Positions 49,924-64,000 of a stretch of 64,000 nucleotides of DNA are shown piece after piece (position 1 is the stretch's first letter; each line of letters opens with the position of its first letter). The stretch is from the NCBI GenBank assembly GCA_009885795.1, contig VFKA01000008.1:1-64000 (forward strand), read 5' to 3'. Both the position numbers and the translations under genes were made by a program. This DNA is from Rhodospirillales bacterium. GTDB taxonomy: Bacteria > Pseudomonadota > Alphaproteobacteria > Dongiales > Dongiaceae. The notes below the pieces were generated by a model that was not told where the DNA came from, did no database searches, and was given only the letters and a program-made list of their open reading frames with translations.

Positions 49924-50069
49924 GGCGCCGGTTATACCGGCGGGACCGCGTCGTGACAATCGGGCGCCCTGCCGTCCTACACGCGGTCTGCTTGACCGTG
50001 CCGGATGGCGAGGTGAATATGCCGCCGCTCCAAGATCCTCGGCCTGGGCGCGGACAGGCTTGGCTCTTT

Positions 50070-50143
50070 GGCCCGGTGGCAGAGTGGCTATGCAGAGGAC
50101 TGCAAATCCTCGTACGTCGGTTCGATTCCGGCCCGGGCCTCCA
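50070..50143 (+). tRNA. tRNA-Cys (anticodon GCA)
   Basis: The acceptor stem pairs GGCCCGG with CCGGGCC. The anticodon loop is CTGCAAA, the T-loop is GGTTCGATTCC, the discriminator base is U73, and CCA is encoded. It is followed after 5 bp by an ATG of the acyl-CoA dehydrogenase gene. Confidence 0.95.
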
Positions 50144-50157
50144 ATCCGATGAGGCCG

Positions 50158-51312
50158 ATGACAGATCACGATTACCGCGACATCCGATCGGCCGTGGCGC
50201 GGCTGTGCGCCGGATTTCCCGGACCTTATTGGCGCGGCCTCGACCGCGAGCGCGCCTACCCGACGGAATTCGTGCGGGCGCTTACCGAGGCCGGCTATCT
50301 CGCCAGCCTGATTCCCGAAGCGTATGGCGGCGCCGGATTGCCGCTGTCGGCGGCGGTGGCGATCCTGGAGGAGATTCATGCCCAGGGCTGCAATGCCGCA
50401 GCCTGCCATGCCCAGATGTACGTCATGGCCACCATCCTGCGCCACGGCGGCGACGAACAGAAACAGCGGTGGCTGCCCGAGATCGCGGCCGGGCGCCTGC
50501 GCCTGCAGGCCTTTGCCGTCACCGAGCCCACGAGCGGCACCGATACCGGCGCGCTCGCCACCTTTGCGCGCCGCGACGGCGACGGCTACGCGATCACCGG
50601 CCAGAAGATCTGGACCTCGCGCGCCGAGCACTCCGATCTCATGCTGCTGCTCGCGCGCACCTCACCCAAGGACGCCAACGCCAAGCACACCGAGGGGCTC
50701 TCGGTTTTCGTCGTCGATCTGCGCGAGGCGGTCGGCCACGGACTGACCATTCGCCCGGTGCGCACGATGATGAACCACGCCACCACCGAAATTTTTCTCG
50801 ACGGCGTACGCGTTCCGGCCGCCAACCGGATCGGCGAAGAAGGACAGGGCTTCCGCTACATCCTCTCCGGCATGAATGCCGAGCGCATCCTGATCGCCGC
50901 CGAATGCATCGGCGACGCGCGCTGGTTCATCGCCAAGGCCGCGTCCTATGCCAAGGAGCGCGTCGTCTTCGGGCGGCCGATCGGCCGGAACCAGGGCGTG
51001 CAGTTCCCCATCGCGCGGGCTCACGCGGCGTGCGAGGCGGCGGCCTTGATGGTCGACAAGGCGGCGGCGCTCTTCGAAACCGGCGCCCCTTGCGGCGCCG
51101 AGGCCAACATGGCGAAGCTCTTGGCCGCCGACGCCGCTTGGGCCGCCGCCGAGTGTTGCGTGCAGACGCATGGCGGTTTCGGTTTCGCCGAGGACTTCGA
51201 TATCGAGCGCAAGTTCCGCGAGACCCGGCTCTATCAGGTGGCGCCCATCTCCACCAATCTCATTCTTTCCTATCTGGCCGAGCACGTCCTCGGCCTGCCG
51301 CGGTCCTATTGA
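50158..51312 (+). CDS. Acyl-CoA dehydrogenase family protein lacking the usual catalytic glutamate
   Basis: A 384-residue FAD enzyme. The fold signatures are AFAVTEPTSGTDTGAL, ITGQKIWTSRAEH, RVVFGRPIGRNQGVQFPIA and QTHGGFGFAEDFDIERKFRETR. Where classical enzymes have YQIYEGTS with the catalytic Glu, this one reads YQVAPISTN, so the base must lie elsewhere or the substrate differs. The gene starts at the ATG of 50158 or 50149, only 14 or 5 bp after tRNA-Cys and without a clear ribosome site. The next gene encodes a MaoC hydratase, 3 bp away. Confidence 0.85.
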   Translation: MTDHDYRDIRSAVARLCAGFPGPYWRGLDRERAYPTEFVRALTEAGYLASLIPEAYGGAGLPLSAAVAILEEIHAQGCNAAACHAQMYVMATILRHGGDEQKQRWLPEIAAGRLRLQAFAVTEPTSGTDTGALATFARRDGDGYAITGQKIWTSRAEHSDLMLLLARTSPKDANAKHTEGLSVFVVDLREAVGHGLTIRPVRTMMNHATTEIFLDGVRVPAANRIGEEGQGFRYILSGMNAERILIAAECIGDARWFIAKAASYAKERVVFGRPIGRNQGVQFPIARAHAACEAAALMVDKAAALFETGAPCGAEANMAKLLAADAAWAAAECCVQTHGGFGFAEDFDIERKFRETRLYQVAPISTNLILSYLAEHVLGLPRSY

Positions 51313-52928: not shown

Positions 52929-55900
52929 TCACGCGGCGCCCAGCAGCTTGGCCACCAGGTTGTCGATTTTTTGCGCCACATTGGCTTCCTTTAGCGCGGC
53001 GCGGACCAGGCCGCGGGCGCGCTGGAACTTCGCGCCTTCGGGTAATTCTACCCTGGCGGCGACCTTCTCGGCCTCCGCCGCCGCCTCGGCGAGGGCACGA
53101 TGAAGCGCCTTCTTGACGTCGAAACGCGGGATAGGGAGGTTGAACATCACCTTGTCGAAGTCGCGGGCGCCCCATTGGCCGCGAGACTGATATCGCTCCA
53201 CGCGGGCGCGCGCGGTTTCGCTGTTGAGGATGGCGGTCAGGTAGCGCCCCTCGGTCTCGTCGGCGGGTGCCATCCAGTAAAGTTTATGATCGACCACGCC
53301 GCGCCGGTCGCGCAGCAGGCACGCCGCGGGCAGCGTTCCGGCCTTGGCGTAAACCACGCGCAAGGAAGCGATGGGGAATTGCACACTCAGCTTGTTGTAG
53401 TAGTTCCACTGGTCGACAAGAGAAACGACACCGTTTTCCAGGTTGGCTTGCCATAGCGCCTCCGCCTTGCGCATCCAACCCCGCAAACCCTCGAAGCCGC
53501 AATTCGCCGCCGCCTCGGCGTCGAGCATTCCGCCCTTCTCGCCCACCGGCACGACGCCCTCGAACGACCGAAACACCCGGTAGGGCAGGATGCTCTCGCC
53601 AAGCAATACTGGGCGCAGGAATTCCGCCTCGACGCGATTTTCGATCGCGGGCAAGCCCTTCCAGGGCTTTTTTTCCTGGCCGTTGCGTCGGCTCGCGACC
53701 AAGGGAGCGCTGGGGTCCACGCCAAGCCTACCCATCTGCCGGCGTTCGACAAGACAGAGCATCCTTGGATACAAAGTCGCCCCATCTCGAAAAACAGTTC
53801 GGTAGTCCGACCCGCCCTCGAAAATTCCCACCGCTGGAGAAGGCGCGCCTTCGACGACAGTCAAGTATTTGTCGGCAATTGCCTCCGGCGCGTCGCGGTA
53901 GGGCAGCGAGCCGGAATAGGCGCGTACCGTTTCGGGAAGCGGCTTGGCAATCGCGCGCTTGCGTCCGAACACCGCGCAGGACGGCACCGGAAACAGCGGC
54001 TGCAAGGAATCGTCCATCGTCCAGGTTTCGTCCCATGGGATTCGCACCGAAGCGAAGGAGCCGCCGCGGAATTTCTCGAACTGGCCGCGGGTCAGCGCCG
54101 CCATCGGCATGACGAAGGCAAGCCGTCCCGCGGAACGCAGATAAAGGTGCACGGCCCGGATGGCGAACAGGGCGCTGAGATCGTTTTGGGTGGCGAACTT
54201 GCCGCCGACATACACCTTCTCGTCCTTCGCCAATTCCTTGAACCGCTTCTGCAGATCGGCGTTCATGTACCGGAACGCGAGCCAGGGCGGGTTGCTGACG
54301 ATCACCTGCGCCCAACCGCCCGCGGCGGATAGGGCAAGCGGTCGCGAGAGGTTGCGCGCCACGTAGGCCCAGACCGTGTCGCGCCCTTCGCGCCGCAGCC
54401 GGTCGAAGGTGAGATAGGTCTTGCCCAGATCGGCGATGGCAATCTGTTGTTCCCTGGTCACGTCGGCGCGGTAATGCTGCTCGACGATGCGATAGAGCGC
54501 CTTTTCGATTTGCGCGCGCGTCATGTCGGCTTGCGAACCCGTCCGCATCCGCTCAATGGCTTTGTCGAACAGGGCCATATCGCGGCAGAAAGTTTCGGGG
54601 AAATCCAACTGCTCGCGCCCGTTAGCGTCGGTCTCGCCGCTTCTGCCGTCACCGGCAAGCGGGGGCGGCACGCGGATCGTCAGTTCCTTCCCGGCCATGA
54701 ATTCGGAAATCGACAATTGCATGGCGTCGCCGAGATAGACCGGAACCGAGATCGTGCCCGAACGTTCGCCAAGCATGGGGGCGAGTGCTAGCAGATATGT
54801 AACTCGGGCTATGATCACCGCCACCGGGTGAATGTCCATGCCCGCCACATGCGCGCAAACTTCGGCCGCGCGCCGCCGCGGCTCCATGTCCCCGTCTTCG
54901 GCCTCGGCAAGAAAATTGCGGATCGCGTGGAACAGGAAGGTGCCCGACCCGCAGGCCGGATCGAGCACATGCTGTTCGAGGGGGCGGTCGGCCGCGCGCC
55001 TGACCATCTTCGCCGCCAGCCAGTCCGGTGTGTAGTATTCGCCAAGCCCGTGCCGTTCCGCTCGGTCGATGAGCGATTCGTAGAGGATTCTCAGAACGTC
55101 GCTTTCGACTTCGGCGAGCCGGAAGCGGCGAACGTGGGCCATGATACGGCGTACCAGCGCCTCGCCTTCGGGATCGGCCACGACCCAGTCGAAGAAGTCG
55201 CTCTCGACCGCGCCGTGGATTCCCGCCGACGCGAAGGCTTCGCCGGAGAGGAGCCGTTTTGGATTGTCCTCGCGCATCCCCATGACCGCGAGAGCGATGC
55301 ATTTCGCGACGACCACAAGAAACGTATGCTGGAACCAGAGGCTGTCGCTCTCCACCTCGCGTCCATAGACGTGCTTGAGGAGTTCCGCCCAGAGTTGGCG
55401 TTTCAGCGACACATCGGGATGGAGTTTGAGCTTTTCCCACAACGCCCGTAGCCGCCCATCGACCAGATGAAACGCGACCGAATCGTGGCCCAGCTCGGCA
55501 CGGATGGTCAGCGGATCGGGCGGCAGCGAGGATTTTAGCGCCAGCGCACCTTCGAGCCAGGCGAGGAATTCGCCGGGCCGTTCAGGGTCGAGAACTGTAC
55601 GCTTGACGACGACGAGCTTGCCGGCGTCCAACTCGAACACCGCCCATTTGTAGCCGTCGGAGGCGATGCCGACGAAATGCTCGTTTTCCTCGCGCTCGCG
55701 GCCGGCGAGATAGTCGGGCATCCGGCGTTCGACGTCCGGCCACTCGCGGTCGAGGTCGCGCTTGGCCTCGAAGATCGTGCGGCCGATGAGGCCGTCGAGC
55801 CGCCCGCGAACCTCCGGCACGCGGCGCTCGAATTCAAGCGCGCCGAGTTCGACCCCGAATTCCTCGATGAGCAATTGCCGGAAGTCGGCCTTCACTTCGT

Positions 55901-55961
55901 CATGGCCGGGGCGGCTGGCGAGGTGGCGCAGGAGGTCGGTGGTCGCTTGCGATTCGGTCAT
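52929..55961 (-). CDS. Fused restriction endonuclease-N6-adenine methyltransferase (type IIG-like)
   Basis: A 1010-residue fusion. An N-terminal PD-(D/E)xK-like site is visible as D56 followed by E65-A-K67 (GRLDGLIG, IFEAKRDL). A helical linker leads to GEYYTP at about 307-312, SAM motif I DPACGSGTF at 334-342, and the adenine-methylase motif NPPW at 557-560. The C-terminal third is the likely target-recognition region. Such single-chain enzymes cut and methylate a specific sequence without a separate specificity subunit. The recognition site is not predictable here. No second restriction gene flanks it. The RHH-PAS gene follows at 10 bp. Confidence 0.82.
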   Translation of the reverse strand: MTESQATTDLLRHLASRPGHDEVKADFRQLLIEEFGVELGALEFERRVPEVRGRLDGLIGRTIFEAKRDLDREWPDVERRMPDYLAGREREENEHFVGIASDGYKWAVFELDAGKLVVVKRTVLDPERPGEFLAWLEGALALKSSLPPDPLTIRAELGHDSVAFHLVDGRLRALWEKLKLHPDVSLKRQLWAELLKHVYGREVESDSLWFQHTFLVVVAKCIALAVMGMREDNPKRLLSGEAFASAGIHGAVESDFFDWVVADPEGEALVRRIMAHVRRFRLAEVESDVLRILYESLIDRAERHGLGEYYTPDWLAAKMVRRAADRPLEQHVLDPACGSGTFLFHAIRNFLAEAEDGDMEPRRRAAEVCAHVAGMDIHPVAVIIARVTYLLALAPMLGERSGTISVPVYLGDAMQLSISEFMAGKELTIRVPPPLAGDGRSGETDANGREQLDFPETFCRDMALFDKAIERMRTGSQADMTRAQIEKALYRIVEQHYRADVTREQQIAIADLGKTYLTFDRLRREGRDTVWAYVARNLSRPLALSAAGGWAQVIVSNPPWLAFRYMNADLQKRFKELAKDEKVYVGGKFATQNDLSALFAIRAVHLYLRSAGRLAFVMPMAALTRGQFEKFRGGSFASVRIPWDETWTMDDSLQPLFPVPSCAVFGRKRAIAKPLPETVRAYSGSLPYRDAPEAIADKYLTVVEGAPSPAVGIFEGGSDYRTVFRDGATLYPRMLCLVERRQMGRLGVDPSAPLVASRRNGQEKKPWKGLPAIENRVEAEFLRPVLLGESILPYRVFRSFEGVVPVGEKGGMLDAEAAANCGFEGLRGWMRKAEALWQANLENGVVSLVDQWNYYNKLSVQFPIASLRVVYAKAGTLPAACLLRDRRGVVDHKLYWMAPADETEGRYLTAILNSETARARVERYQSRGQWGARDFDKVMFNLPIPRFDVKKALHRALAEAAAEAEKVAARVELPEGAKFQRARGLVRAALKEANVAQKIDNLVAKLLGAA

Positions 55962-56158
55962 TTTGGCTCGGATCGACCGCGCAATATTGACATTTTCAGC
56001 GTCCCTCCAAGCCCGCTCCTGGCTCGAAATTCACCATCGCACATTAGAGCGCGGCAAAGAAATTTCAAACCGAGACACTACCGGCGAAGTCCCCCGTTTG
56101 CATTCGACCCTCGGTCGCGGGCACTATGCCCCAATCGTCATCGGCAGGGGAGAGCACC

Positions 56159-56917
56159 ATGACCGTCATGTCGAAGGTCGATGGCACGGACACGGGCCGG
56201 CTGACCGACCAGCTGCGTGCCGCCATGCCCATCCGGCTGGAGCCGCTCGTCCTGGGCGAGCGGGGCGCCGGCCTCGTCATCGTCGATGAGGTCAACGGCT
56301 TTGCCACCGTGGGCGCGGGCTACCTGGCGCCGCCGGTGGAGAATCCGCAGGTGACGCGGATGATCGAGGAGACCGACCGCCTCGCCCGCGCCTTCTCGGG
56401 CTTGGGATGGCCGATCCTCGCCTTCCTCGACACCCATGTGCCGGGCAAGCCCGAACCGCCCTACCCGCCCCATTGCGAAGCCGGGACCGGCCAGGAGGAG
56501 CTGGTGCCGGCGCTGAAATGGCTGGAGCGGGACCGCAACGCCACCCTCGTTCGCAAGGACTGCATCAACGGCTTCGTCGGCGCCATCGCGCCCGATGGCA
56601 CGAATAGCGTGGTCGAGTGGGTGAAGCGCCATCGCCTTGAGTCGGTGCTGGTGGTCGGCATCTGCACCGACATCTGCGTCATGGATTTCGTGCTGACGTT
56701 TCTCTCCGCCCGCAACCACGACATGATGCCGGGGCTGAAGGACATCCTCGTCCACGAAGGCGGCTGCTCGACCTACAGCCTGCCGCGCGAGACGGCGGAG
56801 AAGATCGGCCTCGGCGCCCATGCCGCGCATCCCCAGGACGTGACCCACTATATGGGCCTCTATTTCATGGCCTCGCGCGGCGCCAAGCTCGTGGACAAGG
56901 TCACGGTCGCGGCCTGA
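56159..56917 (+). CDS. Nicotinamidase, isochorismatase superfamily, plant NIC-like
   Basis: A 252-residue hydrolase, best matched by memory to plant nicotinamidases (LAPPVENPQ; EPPYPPHCEAGTG; VRKDCINGFVG). The catalytic triad is D43, K133 and C169 (GICTDIC), and metal ligands are D91, H93 and H105. It would convert nicotinamide to nicotinate. The ATG at 56159 follows an AGGGGAGA ribosome site. An enamidase homologue follows 14 bp later, so the product probably feeds nicotinate breakdown rather than only NAD salvage; that step is inference. Confidence 0.8.
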   Translation: MTVMSKVDGTDTGRLTDQLRAAMPIRLEPLVLGERGAGLVIVDEVNGFATVGAGYLAPPVENPQVTRMIEETDRLARAFSGLGWPILAFLDTHVPGKPEPPYPPHCEAGTGQEELVPALKWLERDRNATLVRKDCINGFVGAIAPDGTNSVVEWVKRHRLESVLVVGICTDICVMDFVLTFLSARNHDMMPGLKDILVHEGGCSTYSLPRETAEKIGLGAHAAHPQDVTHYMGLYFMASRGAKLVDKVTVAA

Positions 56918-56931
56918 AGGGAACGCACGCC

Positions 56932-58125
56932 ATGGCGACACCACAAGCGGCGATGCCCAAGGGCAAGCTGGTCGTCCGCAACATCGGGCTGCTGCTCTCG
57001 GGCGACCTCGATCGGCCGATCCTCGATGCCGATACGATCGTGGCCGTGGATGGCCGCATCGCCGCCATCGGCAAGGCAAAGGATTTGGACACCGGCAACG
57101 CGACCACGGTCATCGACGCCAAGGGCACGGCGTTGGCGCCCGGCCTCATCGACAGCCATGTCCATCCGGTGTTCGGCGACTGGACCCCGCGCCAGAATCA
57201 ACTGAACTGGATCGACAGCTTCCTCCATGGCGGGGTCACGACCATGATTTCCGCCGGCGAAGTCCATCTGCCCGGCCGCCCGCGCGACGTAGTCGGCGTG
57301 AAGGCGCTTGCCATCACCGCGCAGCGCGCCTTCGAAGCCTTCCGTCCGAGCGGGGTCAAGGTGCTGGCCGGCGCCCCCGTTCTCGAGCAAGGCATGGTCG
57401 AGGAAGATTTCAAGGAACTGGCCGCGGCGGGCGTCAAGCTGCTGGGCGAGGTCGGCCTCGGCTCGGTCAAGGCCGGCGACGAGGCCAAGCGCATGGTTGC
57501 CTGGGCGCGCAAATACGGCATCCAGAGCACCATTCACACCGGCGGACCTTCGATCCCCGGCTCCGGCCTCATCGACAAGGACGTCGTACTCGAGGCCGAC
57601 GCCGACGTGATCGGCCACATCAACGGCGGCCACACCGCGCTGCCGTTGGACCAGATTCTCGCCCTGTGCGAGAAAAGCCGACGGGCGATCGAGATCGTGC
57701 ACAATGGCAACGAGAGCGCGGCGCTCTACGCGCTCCGCATCGCGGGGCAGACCGGCCAGCTCGCCCGCGTCATCCTCGGCACCGATTCGCCGGCGGGCTC
57801 GGGCGTGCAGCCGCTCGGCATCCTGCGCATGATCGCGATGCTGTCGAGCCTGGGCGATGTACCGGCCGAGCTGGCCTTCTGCTTTGCCACCGGCAACACC
57901 GCCAGGATAAGGCAGCTCGACTGCGGCCTCATCGAGCCGGGCCGCGCCGCCGACTTCGTCTTCATGGACCGGGCGCAGCACTCGGCCGGCCGCGACCTGC
58001 TCGACAGCGTGCGCAAGGGCGACCTGCCCGGAATCGGCATGGCGGTGATCGACGGCGTCGTGCGCGTCGGGCGCAGCCGCAACACCCCCCCGGCCGACCG
58101 GGTGCCAGAGGTCGTGGAAAGCTGA
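56932..58125 (+). CDS. Enamidase-like amidohydrolase
   Basis: A 397-residue binuclear-metal amidohydrolase. Metal ligands are H76 and H78 (DSHVHP), E173 (GEVGLG), H202 (HTGG), H229 (HINGG) and D285 (GTDSPAGS). The segments FLHGGVTTMISAGEVH and SRNTPPA resemble enamidase of nicotinate fermentation, which opens 6-oxo-tetrahydronicotinate. The nicotinamidase upstream supports that pathway, yet nicotinate dehydrogenase and hydroxynicotinate reductase genes are not in the window. It could act on another cyclic amide. Confidence 0.78.
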   Translation: MATPQAAMPKGKLVVRNIGLLLSGDLDRPILDADTIVAVDGRIAAIGKAKDLDTGNATTVIDAKGTALAPGLIDSHVHPVFGDWTPRQNQLNWIDSFLHGGVTTMISAGEVHLPGRPRDVVGVKALAITAQRAFEAFRPSGVKVLAGAPVLEQGMVEEDFKELAAAGVKLLGEVGLGSVKAGDEAKRMVAWARKYGIQSTIHTGGPSIPGSGLIDKDVVLEADADVIGHINGGHTALPLDQILALCEKSRRAIEIVHNGNESAALYALRIAGQTGQLARVILGTDSPAGSGVQPLGILRMIAMLSSLGDVPAELAFCFATGNTARIRQLDCGLIEPGRAADFVFMDRAQHSAGRDLLDSVRKGDLPGIGMAVIDGVVRVGRSRNTPPADRVPEVVES

Positions 58126-58132
58126 GCGAGCG

Positions 58133-58378
58133 ATGCGCGAGATCAAAGTGAGAATCGAAGAAATCTACGTGCCGGCGGCGCTCCGCAAGCCGCTCGATCC
58201 GCGAAAAGTGGAAGAGCTCGCGCTCGCCATCGCCGCCGATGGCCACCGCACGCCGATCCTGGTTCGGCCCGACAAGAACCGCTATGTTCTGGTGAGCGGC
58301 TGCTATCGGCTCGAAGCCTGCAAGGCGCTGGGCGAGGCCACCATCCGGGCCGAGATCGTTCAGGCACCGAAGCATTGA
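58133..58378 (+). CDS. Stand-alone ParB/Srx-like domain protein
   Basis: An 81-residue single-domain protein. The ParB N-terminal pattern is seen in LDPRKVEELALAIAADGHRTPILVRP and GCYRLEACKALGEATI, where the G-x-x-R box of ParB and sulfiredoxin binds nucleotide. There is no helix-turn-helix and no dimerisation domain, so chromosome partitioning is unlikely. A small nucleotide-dependent enzyme or a co-factor for the operon is possible. It starts 7 bp after the enamidase stop. Confidence 0.65.
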   Translation: MREIKVRIEEIYVPAALRKPLDPRKVEELALAIAADGHRTPILVRPDKNRYVLVSGCYRLEACKALGEATIRAEIVQAPKH

Positions 58379-58399: not shown

Positions 58400-58615
58400 A
58401 TGAAAACTCGCCGTAGCGACCGCATGGTGTCGGGACGAAGCTTGGTTCCCGCCATCGAAACCAGGGCCGGCTTGGCCCGCCGCGCCTTCTGTCTCGGCGT
58501 GCTGCTGCTCACCACTCTGCCGGCCGCCTGCGCCGTGCCTGGGGAAGGGCACGTCGGCCAGCAACCCCTGCGCCGGCGCGGCGGCGGTCGCGGCGGACGG
58601 GGCAGCCGGGGTTGA
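58400..58615 (+). CDS. Small Tat-type lipoprotein with Arg/Gly-rich tail
   Basis: A 71-residue protein with a long basic N-region, LARRAFCLGVLLLTTLPAAC as a twin-arginine-like signal ending in a lipobox, and a short mature part. The last 14 residues are a run of Arg and Gly. A clear GGAG ribosome site precedes the ATG. No family is recognised. It is followed by a cytochrome b561 gene, so an accessory role in electron transfer is possible but unproven. Confidence 0.5.
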   Translation: MKTRRSDRMVSGRSLVPAIETRAGLARRAFCLGVLLLTTLPAACAVPGEGHVGQQPLRRRGGGRGGRGSRG

Positions 58616-58641
58616 GGTTGAGCTGGAAGGGATCGACGCCG

Positions 58642-59175
58642 TTGCGCCAAGACGCCCCTTCCGTGCCGGTATGGGACCCGCTCGTCCGCCTGTTCCACTG
58701 GTCGCTGGTCGTGGCCGTCGGCATCGACCTCTTCCTGGAGGACGGCACCGACCTGCACGACGCGGCCGGTTACGTCGTCCTCGGGCTGGTCGCGTTTCGC
58801 CTGATCTGGGGATTCGTCGGCCCGCGCCACGCGCGCTTCGCCGATTTCGTGCGCGGGCCCGGCGCCGTCCTGAGTTACCTCGGCGACCTCGCGCGTAGAC
58901 GCGCCCGCCCCTATCTCGGTCACAACCCCGCCGGCGGCGCCATGATCGTCCTGCTGCTGGCCGACCTCGCGCTTGCCTCGGGCTCGGGTGCGCTCTTGGG
59001 GACAGACGCGTTCCGAAGGGTCGAATGGGTCGAGACCGTTCACGCCATCTCCGGCAATCTACTCTTCATCTTGGTGCCGCTGCACCTCTTGGGCGTCCTC
59101 GTCGGCAGCATTGCCGACAGCGAGAACCTGCTCGCCGCCATGCTGACCGGCCGCAAGCGCGCGCCCAGGGAATAG
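58642..59175 (+). CDS. Cytochrome b561-family membrane protein
   Basis: A 177-residue di-haem cytochrome b. Four hydrophobic segments carry histidines in RLFHWSLVV, DLHDAAGY, ETVHAISGN and VPLHLLGVL, the expected axial ligands. VWDPLVRLFHW is the standard opening. TTG at 58642 follows GGAAGGGA at a proper distance; TTG at 58612 overlaps the lipoprotein stop and adds ten residues. The redox partner is not evident, unless the upstream lipoprotein contributes. Confidence 0.85.
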   Translation: MRQDAPSVPVWDPLVRLFHWSLVVAVGIDLFLEDGTDLHDAAGYVVLGLVAFRLIWGFVGPRHARFADFVRGPGAVLSYLGDLARRRARPYLGHNPAGGAMIVLLLADLALASGSGALLGTDAFRRVEWVETVHAISGNLLFILVPLHLLGVLVGSIADSENLLAAMLTGRKRAPRE

Positions 59176-60411: not shown

Positions 60412-60777
60412 ATGATCGCCACCCTGTCACGAGAATCGCGGGCGAACGGCGCCAAGCTTAACCTGGCGGCCGAACGCCTTGAAGCGATCGGCAATCCCAC
60501 CCGTCTCGGCATCTTCCGCATGCTGGTTCGCGCCGGCGGCGACGGGCTGCCGGTCGGCCGGCTGCAGCAGCGTTTGATGCTCGCGGCCTCGACGCTCTCC
60601 CACCACTTGCGCGTGCTCATCGCCGTCGGACTGGTATCCCAGGAGCGCCGGAAGACGACCCTGGTCTGCCGCGCCAACTTCGCGGCGATGGAGGCCCTGG
60701 TCTCGTACCTCGTGGACGAGTGCTGCGCCGACGCAAAGGACGAGAAACGCGAACTGCCAAAGGGACGCCAGCCATGA
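60412..60777 (+). CDS. arsR: ArsR/SmtB family metal(loid)-responsive repressor
   Basis: A 121-residue winged-helix repressor (AERLEAIGNPTRLGIFRMLV; LMLAASTLSHHLRVL recognition helix). A vicinal cysteine pair in DECCADAK near residue 105 is a plausible As(III) or metal site, placed C-terminally rather than in the helix used by E. coli ArsR. It controls its own operon through the upstream repeat. The stop overlaps the flavoprotein gene by 4 bp (ATGA). Confidence 0.87.
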   Translation: MIATLSRESRANGAKLNLAAERLEAIGNPTRLGIFRMLVRAGGDGLPVGRLQQRLMLAASTLSHHLRVLIAVGLVSQERRKTTLVCRANFAAMEALVSYLVDECCADAKDEKRELPKGRQP

Positions 60778-62090
60778 CGCAAGCCGCCGCCCTCTCGCCC
60801 CAAGACCTGCCCGTCGCCGTCATCGGCGCCGGGCCGGTCGGCCTCGCCGCCGCCGCCCAGCTGGCCGAGCGCGGCCTGCCCTTCGCGGTTTTCGAGGCTG
60901 GCGCCGGTCCAGGCGCCGCCATCCGCGATTGGGGCCATGTGACGTTTTTCTCACCATGGCGCTTCAATGTCGATGCCGCCGCCCGCCGGCTTCTCGAACT
61001 CAACCAGTGGACCAGCCCGGAACCCGGCCGCGATCCCACGGGCAATGAACTTGTCGACATGTACTTGGCGCCGCTCGCGGCCCACCCGCGTATCGCGCCG
61101 CATGTCTTCTATCGCGCCCGCGTTGTGGCCGTCACCCGCCAGGGCATGGACCGGGTTCCGTCGAGAAACCGCGAGCAGCGCCCCTTCGAGATCGTGGTCG
61201 AGGACGGCAATGGCCAGCAGCGTCTGGTGCCCGCCCGCGCGGTCATCGACGCCTCCGGGACATGGCAAACGCCCAACCCGGCCGGCGCCAACGGCATCCC
61301 CGCCATCGGCGAGCGTGAATCGGCGAGCCGCATCCGCGCCGGTATTCCCGACGTTTCCGGTGTCGAGCGCGGCCGCTATGCCGGCAAGCGCGTCATGGTG
61401 ATCGGCTCCGGCCACTCCGCCATGGATTCGGTCCTCGGCCTGGCCCGCCTGAAAGAAACCGCACCCGGGACCGCCATCACCTGGGCCATGCGCTCGCCGC
61501 CGACGCCCAAGACCTTTGGCCTAGGCCCCGACGATCGGCTGTCGAACCGCGGCGCGCTCGGCAAACGCGCCAAGGCCGCCATCGATGCCGGCAAGATCAC
61601 GATGCTGGCCCCGTTTCGGACACGCGCGTTCGCGCTCCAGGGCGACGGCATCGAGGTCACCGGCGAGACCGAGACCGGACAAACTTCCGTGAAAGTGGAC
61701 GAGGTCATCGTCGCGACCGGGTTCCGGCCGGACTTTTCGATGTTGACCGAGCTCCGCCTCGATCTTCACCCGTGGCTGGAATGCCCGCGTGAGCTAGGCC
61801 CGCTGATCGATCCGAACGAGCATTCTTGCAACGACGTGCCCCCGCACGGTGTCAAGCAGCTCTCGCATCCGGAAGCCGGATTCGTGATCGCCGGCATGAA
61901 AAGCTATGGCCGCGCGCCGACGTTCCTGATGATGACCGGCTACGAGCAGATCCGCTCCGTGGTCGCGGCGTTCGCCGGCGACTGGACGGCAGCCCTCGAG
62001 ACCAGGCTGGTCTTGCCGCATTCCGGCGTCTGCGCCCCTAGGGATGAAGCCGCTTGCTGCCCGCCGGCCGAGAAACGCACCGGCACATGA
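60774..62090 (+). CDS. FAD/NAD(P)-binding oxidoreductase, ArsO-like
   Basis: A 438-residue two-dinucleotide-binding flavoprotein. It has FAD motif VIGAGPVGLAAAAQLA near residue 15 and NADPH motif VMVIGSGHSAMDSVL near 220. The tail SGVCAPRDEAACCPP holds a Cys and a vicinal Cys pair. Flavin monooxygenases called ArsO occur in arsenic operons, and the ArsR upstream and transporter downstream support this. The reaction is not established. It overlaps both neighbours by 4 bp. Confidence 0.75.
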   Translation: MTQAAALSPQDLPVAVIGAGPVGLAAAAQLAERGLPFAVFEAGAGPGAAIRDWGHVTFFSPWRFNVDAAARRLLELNQWTSPEPGRDPTGNELVDMYLAPLAAHPRIAPHVFYRARVVAVTRQGMDRVPSRNREQRPFEIVVEDGNGQQRLVPARAVIDASGTWQTPNPAGANGIPAIGERESASRIRAGIPDVSGVERGRYAGKRVMVIGSGHSAMDSVLGLARLKETAPGTAITWAMRSPPTPKTFGLGPDDRLSNRGALGKRAKAAIDAGKITMLAPFRTRAFALQGDGIEVTGETETGQTSVKVDEVIVATGFRPDFSMLTELRLDLHPWLECPRELGPLIDPNEHSCNDVPPHGVKQLSHPEAGFVIAGMKSYGRAPTFLMMTGYEQIRSVVAAFAGDWTAALETRLVLPHSGVCAPRDEAACCPPAEKRTGT

Positions 62091-63298
62091 CCCTGGCGCC
62101 GGCCGCGCGCGGGCCGTTTCCCTGGACGTTCGTGGTTCCGCTGGCCGTCGCCCAGCTGGTTTCCTGGGGCTCGCTCTACTATGCCTTCGCCGTCATCGTC
62201 GGGCCGATGTCGGCGGAATTCGCATGGTCGAAGACCTCCGTCAACGCCGCCTTGTCGGTCGGCCTGGCCATGACCGGCCTTGCTTCCTATGGCGTCGGCC
62301 GGGCCATCGACCTCCATGGCGGCCGCGCGCTGATGACGGCGGGCTCGGCCGCCGCGACCATTCTGCTTTTTCTTTGGTCTCGGATCGACGCGCTGTGGCA
62401 GCTCTACGCCATCTGGATGGCGATGGGCGTGGCGTTCTCGACGGTGCTGTACGAACCCGTGTTCGCGGTGATCGCGCGCGAACTCAAGGGCGACTACCGG
62501 CGCGGCATCGTCATCATCACGCTGGTGGCGGGGCTCGCCAGCACTGTCTTCATCCCGCTCACCCATGCCCTGGTCGAGGGCTTGGGATGGCGCGACGCGC
62601 TGAAAGTGCTGGCGCTGATTCAGATTCCGTTCGGTATTGTCCTTCATTGGGTCGTGCTTGGCCGGAACGCGAGCGGCGCCCAGCGCCAGCCGCCGGCCGA
62701 GCCGCCGCCGCCCGGCCGGATGAAGGCGGCGATGCGGAGCCCGATCTTTTGGCTGCTCTCGACCAGCTACGCCGCCCACTCCTTCATGTTCACGGCGGTC
62801 ACTTTCCACATTCTTCCGCTTCTGGCCGAGCGTGGCGTGACGATGGCCGCGGCGGTCGCGGCTTACGCCCTCGTCGGTCCCGCGCAAGTGGCCGGGCGGA
62901 TCGTCGTCTTCGCGCTGGAACGGCGCATCGACGTGCGCGCCGCCGGCATCGTCGCGACGACGCTGCCGGTCCTGGGCATCGGCGCCCTGCTGCTGGTCAC
63001 GCCGGGATCGCCGCTGCTCTATGTCTTCGCCATCCTCTACGGCGGCGGCATGGGCATCAAGACCATCGTCCAGGCGACGGCGGCGCCGGAGTTCCTCGGC
63101 CGCGAGGGCTACGGCGCGCTGCAAGGGGCGCTCTCCGGCCTTGTCTACGCCGTGCAGGCGACGACGCCCTTCCTGGCGGCGGTCATCTGGTCATGGGGCG
63201 GCGGTTACGGCCCGGTCCTCTGGGTGCTGCTCGGCGCGACGGTGATCGCGGCGGTCGCCTTCGCTCTCGCCGCTGCCTTGGCCCGTCCTCGATCTTGA
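62087..63298 (+). CDS. MFS transporter of the arsR operon
   Basis: A 403-residue, twelve-helix major facilitator. The N-terminus PFPWTFVVPLAVAQLVSWGSLYYAF and a cytoplasmic loop near residue 200 (Pro/Glu-rich) divide two six-helix halves. A metalloid or organoarsenical exporter of the ArsK kind is plausible from context only. The start ATG at 62087 overlaps the flavoprotein stop; an upstream in-frame start at 62054 would be inside that gene. Confidence 0.78.
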   Translation: MTLAPAARGPFPWTFVVPLAVAQLVSWGSLYYAFAVIVGPMSAEFAWSKTSVNAALSVGLAMTGLASYGVGRAIDLHGGRALMTAGSAAATILLFLWSRIDALWQLYAIWMAMGVAFSTVLYEPVFAVIARELKGDYRRGIVIITLVAGLASTVFIPLTHALVEGLGWRDALKVLALIQIPFGIVLHWVVLGRNASGAQRQPPAEPPPPGRMKAAMRSPIFWLLSTSYAAHSFMFTAVTFHILPLLAERGVTMAAAVAAYALVGPAQVAGRIVVFALERRIDVRAAGIVATTLPVLGIGALLLVTPGSPLLYVFAILYGGGMGIKTIVQATAAPEFLGREGYGALQGALSGLVYAVQATTPFLAAVIWSWGGGYGPVLWVLLGATVIAAVAFALAAALARPRS

Positions 63299-63887: not shown

Positions 63888-64000
63888 CTACGTCTTCCTG
63901 CGTCTAGTAGATTCGGCCGGGTTTTTCCACGCCGGCTTCGGCAACTCCCCGTCGGTGCCCCAGTTCAGAACCCAGGCGACGACTTCTTCATGCGGGATCA
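63888..64000 (-). CDS. Antitoxin-like protein, N-terminus beyond the window
   Basis: The last 37 codons of a minus-strand gene, ending at TAG in 63888-63890. The visible tail IPHEEVVAWVLNWGTDGELP resembles the C-terminal ends of short antitoxins, in which a conserved HEE precedes a Trp-rich turn. The partner toxin, if any, would lie outside the window to the right, or be lost. Assignment is from this short tail only. Confidence 0.4.
   Translation of the reverse strand, partial: IPHEEVVAWVLNWGTDGELPKPAWKNPAESTRRRKT

Follow-up and report, generated by a model that had tools for sequence, protein, structure and literature searches.

A route of nicotinate breakdown via 1,4,5,6-tetrahydro-6-oxonicotinate (THON) has been described in the aerobe Azorhizobium caulinodans, with a conserved gene cluster in other proteobacteria, and breakdown proceeds via glutarate (PMC3511419, in the portion accessible to us). 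The enamidase of Eubacterium barkeri (2VUN) is the closest homologue of known structure to the putative ring-opening enzyme studied here. The locus described below belongs to this known aerobic reductive type of nicotinate pathway. The remark in the first-pass annotation that such chemistry is best known from anaerobic fermenters needs widening to A. caulinodans and the other proteobacteria. In our view the locus probably forms the end portion of such a cluster, cut by the edge of the window and fed by a nicotinamidase. The window is the whole stretch of DNA analysed, bases 1-64000 of contig C25 (147,625 bases; contig and window coordinates coincide), from a genome of 3.46 Mb that is 99.89% complete.

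Three open reading frames were confirmed on the plus strand by ORF and Pfam checks, at the positions and in the families first given for them: an isochorismatase-family hydrolase at 56159-56917 (252 aa; Isochorismatase PF00857, E 1.1e-18), an amidohydrolase at 56932-58125 (397 aa; Amidohydro_1 PF01979, E 1.8e-13) and a stand-alone ParB_N-like protein, here called mini-ParB, at 58133-58378 (81 aa; ParB_N PF02195, E 1.5e-6, its 28.6 bits exceeding the cut-off of 26.3). The longest frame of the hydrolase begins at 56126, and 56159 was taken as its start because the ATG there follows GGGGAGAG. Relatives of the three proteins are encoded by 22, 22 and 41, respectively, of the 289 genomes searched from the class, which we take to be Alphaproteobacteria, so the frames are not chance. 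Their shared strand and the gaps between them, 14 bp and 7 bp, suggest one operon. Scanning the locus for consensus sites revealed nothing resembling a promoter. Within the enamidase gene the scan gave two overlapping terminator-like matches, where 1.5 would be expected, and an Rfam scan returned nothing useful. Upstream, on the minus strand at 52929-55961, lies a 1010-aa N6 DNA methylase (PF02384, Eco57I PF07669), probably a single-chain restriction-modification enzyme. Downstream, a cytochrome b561-type membrane protein (58612-59175, plus strand; PF01292, E 4.6e-20) showed no pathway link beyond the common strand. It is followed on the plus strand by a cassette at 60412-63298 of an ArsR-type regulator (NF033788, 58.9 bits, above the cut-off of 55), an FAD oxidoreductase (Pyr_redox_3, 8e-19) and an ArsK-like MFS protein (NF033733, 192.9 bits, under the cut-off of 400).

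The amidohydrolase is an enamidase by homology, predicted to open the ring of THON. When the PDB was searched with it, 2VUN, its closest homologue among amidohydrolases, was matched at E 5e-115 (387.9 bits) and the second-best chain at E 1e-6 (31 bits), and the window protein and 2VUN are 47% identical over nearly their full length. H76, H78, E173, H202, H229 and D285 were identical in 2VUN in the alignment; we take these six to be the metal ligands, namely an HxH pair, a bridging glutamate, two further histidines and an aspartate. E173 was kept in 2VUN and in all 12 nicotinate-cluster rows of the alignment, and was K or F in eight divergent paralogues. A 21-row tree grouped the window protein with 11 nicotinate-cluster proteins in a fully supported clade. 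This clade met 2VUN and a divergent clade of five paralogues in one fork of unsettled branch order, with three more divergent paralogues branching further away. The enamidase assignment thus survived the phylogeny proposed as its check, by the glutamate ligand held in common with 2VUN and by a position adjoining it in that fork. Unlike the E. barkeri gene, the window gene is clustered with UPF0280 and two PF06684 genes, and its activity is a prediction.

The cluster resumes 121 bp past the end of the window on the same contig, where its genes are all on the minus strand: AA_synth1 (PF06684; C25:64121-64705), AA_synth2 (PF06684; C25:64702-65367), UPF0280 (C25:67174-68118), 6-hydroxynicotinate reductase or Hnr (C25:68115-69593; 67% identical to an annotated Sulfitobacter Hnr), the Mo subunit of a molybdenum hydroxylase (from C25:69586) and its FAD subunit (C25:72306-73160). 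The first two nicotinate steps had been described as not encoded here because the window ends at 64000; the search proposed for nicotinate dehydrogenase and 6-hydroxynicotinate reductase led to the molybdenum hydroxylase and Hnr genes on C25, roughly 4 to 9 kb beyond where the window stops. A gene with NYN and OST-HTH/LOTUS domains (C25:65360-66208, L108:1360-2208, plus strand) stands between AA_synth2 and UPF0280, apparently as an insertion, and the ars-like cassette separates the enamidase gene from the remaining cluster. Because of these two interruptions, the cluster may be decaying or may have been broken into separate transcription units. The clusters of A. caulinodans and Bradyrhizobiaceae SG-6C (PMC3511419) differ from this one in that here the cluster is split by the cassette, the enamidase gene is adjoined by a nicotinamidase-like gene, and the stretch from 56 to 73 kb contains no recognisable transporter belonging to the cluster. 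Elsewhere in the window, an acyl-CoA dehydrogenase (50068-51312) has a 71% identical counterpart at a different enamidase locus (L020), with glutaryl-CoA dehydrogenase among its sub-cut-off matches, and could serve the later nicotinate pathway. Further along the contig, C25:76219-77025 (L108:12219-13025) encodes a DarT-type DNA ADP-ribosyltransferase toxin (NF048013 above cut-off; PF14487, 7e-53).

Linkage of the enamidase with Hnr was also found in relatives. Hnr was present in the fetched stretch of 14 of the 15 other same-family enamidase loci, the exception being a contig of 6.7 kb. At least one nicotinate-cluster gene lay within the fetched flank, many of which are short, in 52 of the 80 named enamidase loci, and the other 28 include short contigs. 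Annotated enamidase-Hnr clusters are also present on plasmids. Co-occurrence was then counted in one even draw of 289 class genomes with the source genome set aside, a close enamidase being one with E <= 1e-180; the p values are uncorrected for kinship or genome size. A close enamidase was present in 18 genomes and Hnr in 43, and both were present in 17 (2.7 expected, p = 6e-15). The co-occurrence with nicotinate genes in relatives that had been set as a test of the enamidase was accordingly found, with Hnr in 17 of 18 close-enamidase genomes. The nicotinamidase-like gene was present in 21 genomes, 11 of them with Hnr (3.1 expected, p = 3e-5) and four with a close enamidase (1.3 expected, p = 0.03). 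For mini-ParB, present in 40 genomes, the counts were 17 with Hnr (6.0 expected, p = 4e-6) and six with a close enamidase (2.5 expected, p = 0.03). Taking mini-ParB as the background level, the enamidase-Hnr link exceeds it and the nicotinamidase-like gene does not. Co-occurrence was therefore dropped as support for a nicotinamidase role, since mini-ParB, a likely bystander, co-occurs with Hnr as strongly.

The hydrolase looks like a nicotinamidase, in its sequence and in its structural model. D43, K133 and C173, presumably the catalytic Cys/Lys/Asp triad, and D91, H93, E99 and H105, presumably the metal site, were invariant in all 23 aligned sequences, and by eye the D-x-H...H motif was not seen in the genome's other two PF00857 proteins. 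The best nine PDB fold matches of its AF2 model (pLDDT 89.6) were all nicotinamidases; maleamate amidase, biuret hydrolase and triuret hydrolase were also among the fold matches. Six of the seven PDB sequences matched by the family profile at E <= 1e-5 were nicotinamidases. The single-sequence match to a known nicotinamidase was weak (3pl1, E 2.8e-4), and no NCBIfam family was found at E 0.01, the superfamily PF00857 alone being matched. Nicotinamidases 3o90 (Streptococcus), 5zn8 (Bacillus) and 2wt9 (Acinetobacter) share its fold, triad and D-x-H...E...H pattern, but are about 20% identical to it in structural alignment and are 183-235 aa long against 252 aa here.

The genes observed, the homologies of their products, the ties of enamidase to Hnr by linkage and by co-occurrence, and the conserved metal and catalytic residues lead to the following proposed pathway, with all substrates inferred. 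Nicotinamide would be deamidated to nicotinate by the hydrolase at 56159, nicotinate converted to 6-hydroxynicotinate by the Mo/Fe-S/FAD hydroxylase, and 6-hydroxynicotinate reduced to THON by Hnr. The enamidase at 56932 would then convert THON, a cyclic enamide, to 2-formylglutarate and ammonia, with 2-formylglutarate passing onwards in the direction of glutarate. The ParB-like gene would take no part and would owe its place to chance genome rearrangement.

The weaker half of this idea is the place of the nicotinamidase, because a nicotinamidase-like gene was absent from the fetched flanks of all 80 named enamidase loci. It is thus possible, though we think it doubtful, that the enamidase and the downstream cluster form the nicotinate pathway and that the hydrolase serves NAD salvage or acts on another amide, standing upstream by chance. 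The varied contexts of its relatives favour this. On a Bosea plasmid the gene has NAD synthase and nicotinate phosphoribosyltransferase genes on its upstream side and a NUDIX gene on its downstream side, which is the context of an NAD operon and also speaks for a nicotinamidase. In genus g42 (L164, L167 and L170) it is flanked on one side by the gene of a urea-type ABC binding protein and on the other by that of phosphonoacetate hydrolase, and a phosphonoacetaldehyde dehydrogenase gene is close by. Among 17 genomes of the same family, 16 have an enamidase, and 13 of these 16 have no nicotinamidase-like gene while three do. The class genomes with both a nicotinamidase-like gene and Hnr carry them on different contigs in eight of 12 cases, and its co-occurrence with Hnr is, as stated, no better than that of mini-ParB. 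Against NAD salvage, the gene lies within or near nicotinate clusters in four genomes (G000, G291, G041 and G168); in G291, of the same family, it is inside the cluster and directly before AA_synth2, and in two genomes of genus g42, G041 and G168, it is about 10 kb from Hnr. The gene is optional to the nicotinate cluster. Of the pairing first proposed, a nicotinamidase-like gene together with an enamidase in a nicotinate pathway is supported. We still infer that the hydrolase feeds the nicotinate route, beyond NAD salvage alone. Action of the enamidase on a lactam other than THON, in an operon unrelated to nicotinate, is very improbable: in a single genome (G082) a close enamidase was found and Hnr was not, but Hnr, the Mo-hydroxylase and accessory genes are on the same contig here, the ligands are those of 2VUN, and the other 17 close-enamidase genomes have Hnr.

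The third gene had been noted as having no obvious place in such a pathway, and this puzzle mostly dissolves if it is a bystander. Mini-ParB is a widespread ParB_N-only protein and probably such a bystander; its homologues are mostly about 80-90 aa, and three matches of about 30 bits sit within longer open frames of 275-295 aa. The architecture of a ParB partition protein (ParB_N, HTH, dimerisation domain) was not found in its 81 aa, which hold ParB_N only. Its AF2 model (pLDDT 87.3) matched ParB 7bnk (8.8e-8) and, fourth by fold, sulfiredoxin 6ky4 (2.4e-7), and 6ky4 was also its best PDB sequence match (E 3.5e-5). That it regulates the operon or acts as its redox partner is nevertheless very unlikely in our estimate, despite these matches, the position 7 bp downstream of the enamidase gene, the co-occurrence with Hnr and a motif, SGCYR, that resembles the sulfiredoxin SGCHR. 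Of 34 distinct sequences, the window protein alone has the cysteine, the others having mostly [SE]G[LF]HR, and identity as a sulfiredoxin was rejected on this ground. No neighbour was conserved beyond near relatives in a comparison of 24 loci (open frames on the non-coding strand were set aside in the neighbour clusterings). Mini-ParB adjoined the enamidase within the fetched flanks of none of the 80 named loci, and in three same-family genomes the two were on different contigs.

Not all Hnr genomes carry an enamidase. With the source genome included, 44 of the 289 genomes have Hnr, 18 with a close enamidase and 26 without. Of the latter, 25 have a HyuA at least 58% identical to that at L248:1873-3921, a line that was drawn after viewing the list, the next full-length matches (53-55%) being in genomes without Hnr. 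With at most four candidates scored per genome, this HyuA clade was found in none of the 18 genomes with Hnr and a close enamidase, where the best listed match was 47%. This either-or split has p = 2e-11, uncorrected for kinship, and the sole Hnr genome with neither ring-opening gene (G226) is 70% complete. Counted by family, Hnr is accompanied by a close enamidase in 12 and by HyuA in 16, and one (f104) is common to both; a genome of that family, G104, has Hnr, HyuA and a divergent enamidase paralogue (43%). In 16 of the 25 HyuA-type genomes the distance between HyuA and Hnr is at most 10 kb, and HyuA is present in 13 of the 19 fetched loci with Hnr from class genomes without enamidase (L242-L260). 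The 26 plasmid records with Hnr, which are not whole genomes, divided likewise: 16 had an enamidase and no HyuA at or above 57%, Sulfitobacter making up 12 of these, and 10 had a HyuA of 58.7-62.1% and no enamidase match.

The HyuA and HyuB proteins are PF01968/PF05378 and PF02538 (hydantoinase/oxoprolinase), respectively, and are absent from the window. Their nearest curated families are those of caprolactamase CapA/CapB (486 and 346 bits), of the caprolactamase/5-oxoprolinase family described in PMC8453981 (accessible in part), but they score well under the curated cut-offs of 1000. An assignment of caprolactamase-like HyuA/HyuB to a nicotinate pathway was not found in the surveyed part of the freely available literature. 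HyuA-type clusters of Sagittula and Pseudosulfitobacter match the Sulfitobacter enamidase-type cluster in gene kinds; Hnr, UPF0280, two PF06684 genes, Mo and FAD subunits, ferredoxin-NADP reductase, a Rieske oxygenase and MarR are common to both annotated types. In Rhizobium the genes Hnr-UPF0280-AA_synth2-AA_synth1 keep a common order, the R. lusitanum and R. etli copies being 67-83% identical. Next in line come HyuA-HyuB in R. lusitanum, and an oppositely oriented enamidase gene in R. etli and Rhizobium sp. 007. The two kinds also interleave in an Hnr tree of 47 rows, with nine changes on the best tree and at least three forced by well-supported branches, although the labels are more clustered than in most shuffles. 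Our reading is that one ring-opening enzyme has apparently taken the place of the other behind Hnr more than once; the enamidase and HyuA would then be two predicted ways to open one ring. Against this, members of the HyuA clade are also present where Hnr is absent, in genomes G114, G217 and G127 (a partial match) and on plasmids of Sinorhizobium medicae and R. rhododendri, and the HyuA-type clusters may act on a different substrate.

Among the class genomes AA_synth1 is constant with the enamidase, yet not exclusive to it. A copy with at least 68% identity was present in all 19 close-enamidase genomes, the source genome included, and in two of the 270 others (18 of 18 without the source genome, p = 1e-26). 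The two others, G080 and G195, have no enamidase, and the G195 copy has an internal stop. AA_synth1 was also found in plasmid HyuA-type clusters of R. lusitanum (67%), Allorhizobium (66.5%) and Neorhizobium (63%), and as copies of 57-59% in those of Sagittula, Pseudosulfitobacter and a Paracoccaceae bacterium. A role as an enamidase-only partner, suggested by a tree and by the 19 of 19 survey, was rejected in view of these clusters and of G080 and G195. In the accessible part of the 2010 report of DUF1185 structures (PMC2954203), "amino-acid metabolism" was proposed for PF06684 from neighbouring genes of branched-chain amino-acid metabolism and transport. Our guess is that the substrate of AA_synth1 might be the enamine left by ring opening, or 2-formylglutarate.

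The locus adds one aerobic nicotinate degrader, and its nicotinamidase-like gene could extend the diet to nicotinamide. We lean slightly towards two interchangeable designs, an ATP-free metal enamidase and an ATP-dependent HyuA/HyuB, with AA_synth1, constant in the enamidase design, making DUF1185 a nicotinate-pathway family. If true, a clean either-or of two unrelated ring-opening enzymes behind one reductase would exemplify non-homologous replacement well, an orphan hydantoinase-like clade would gain a function, and DUF1185 would be tied to pyridine catabolism.
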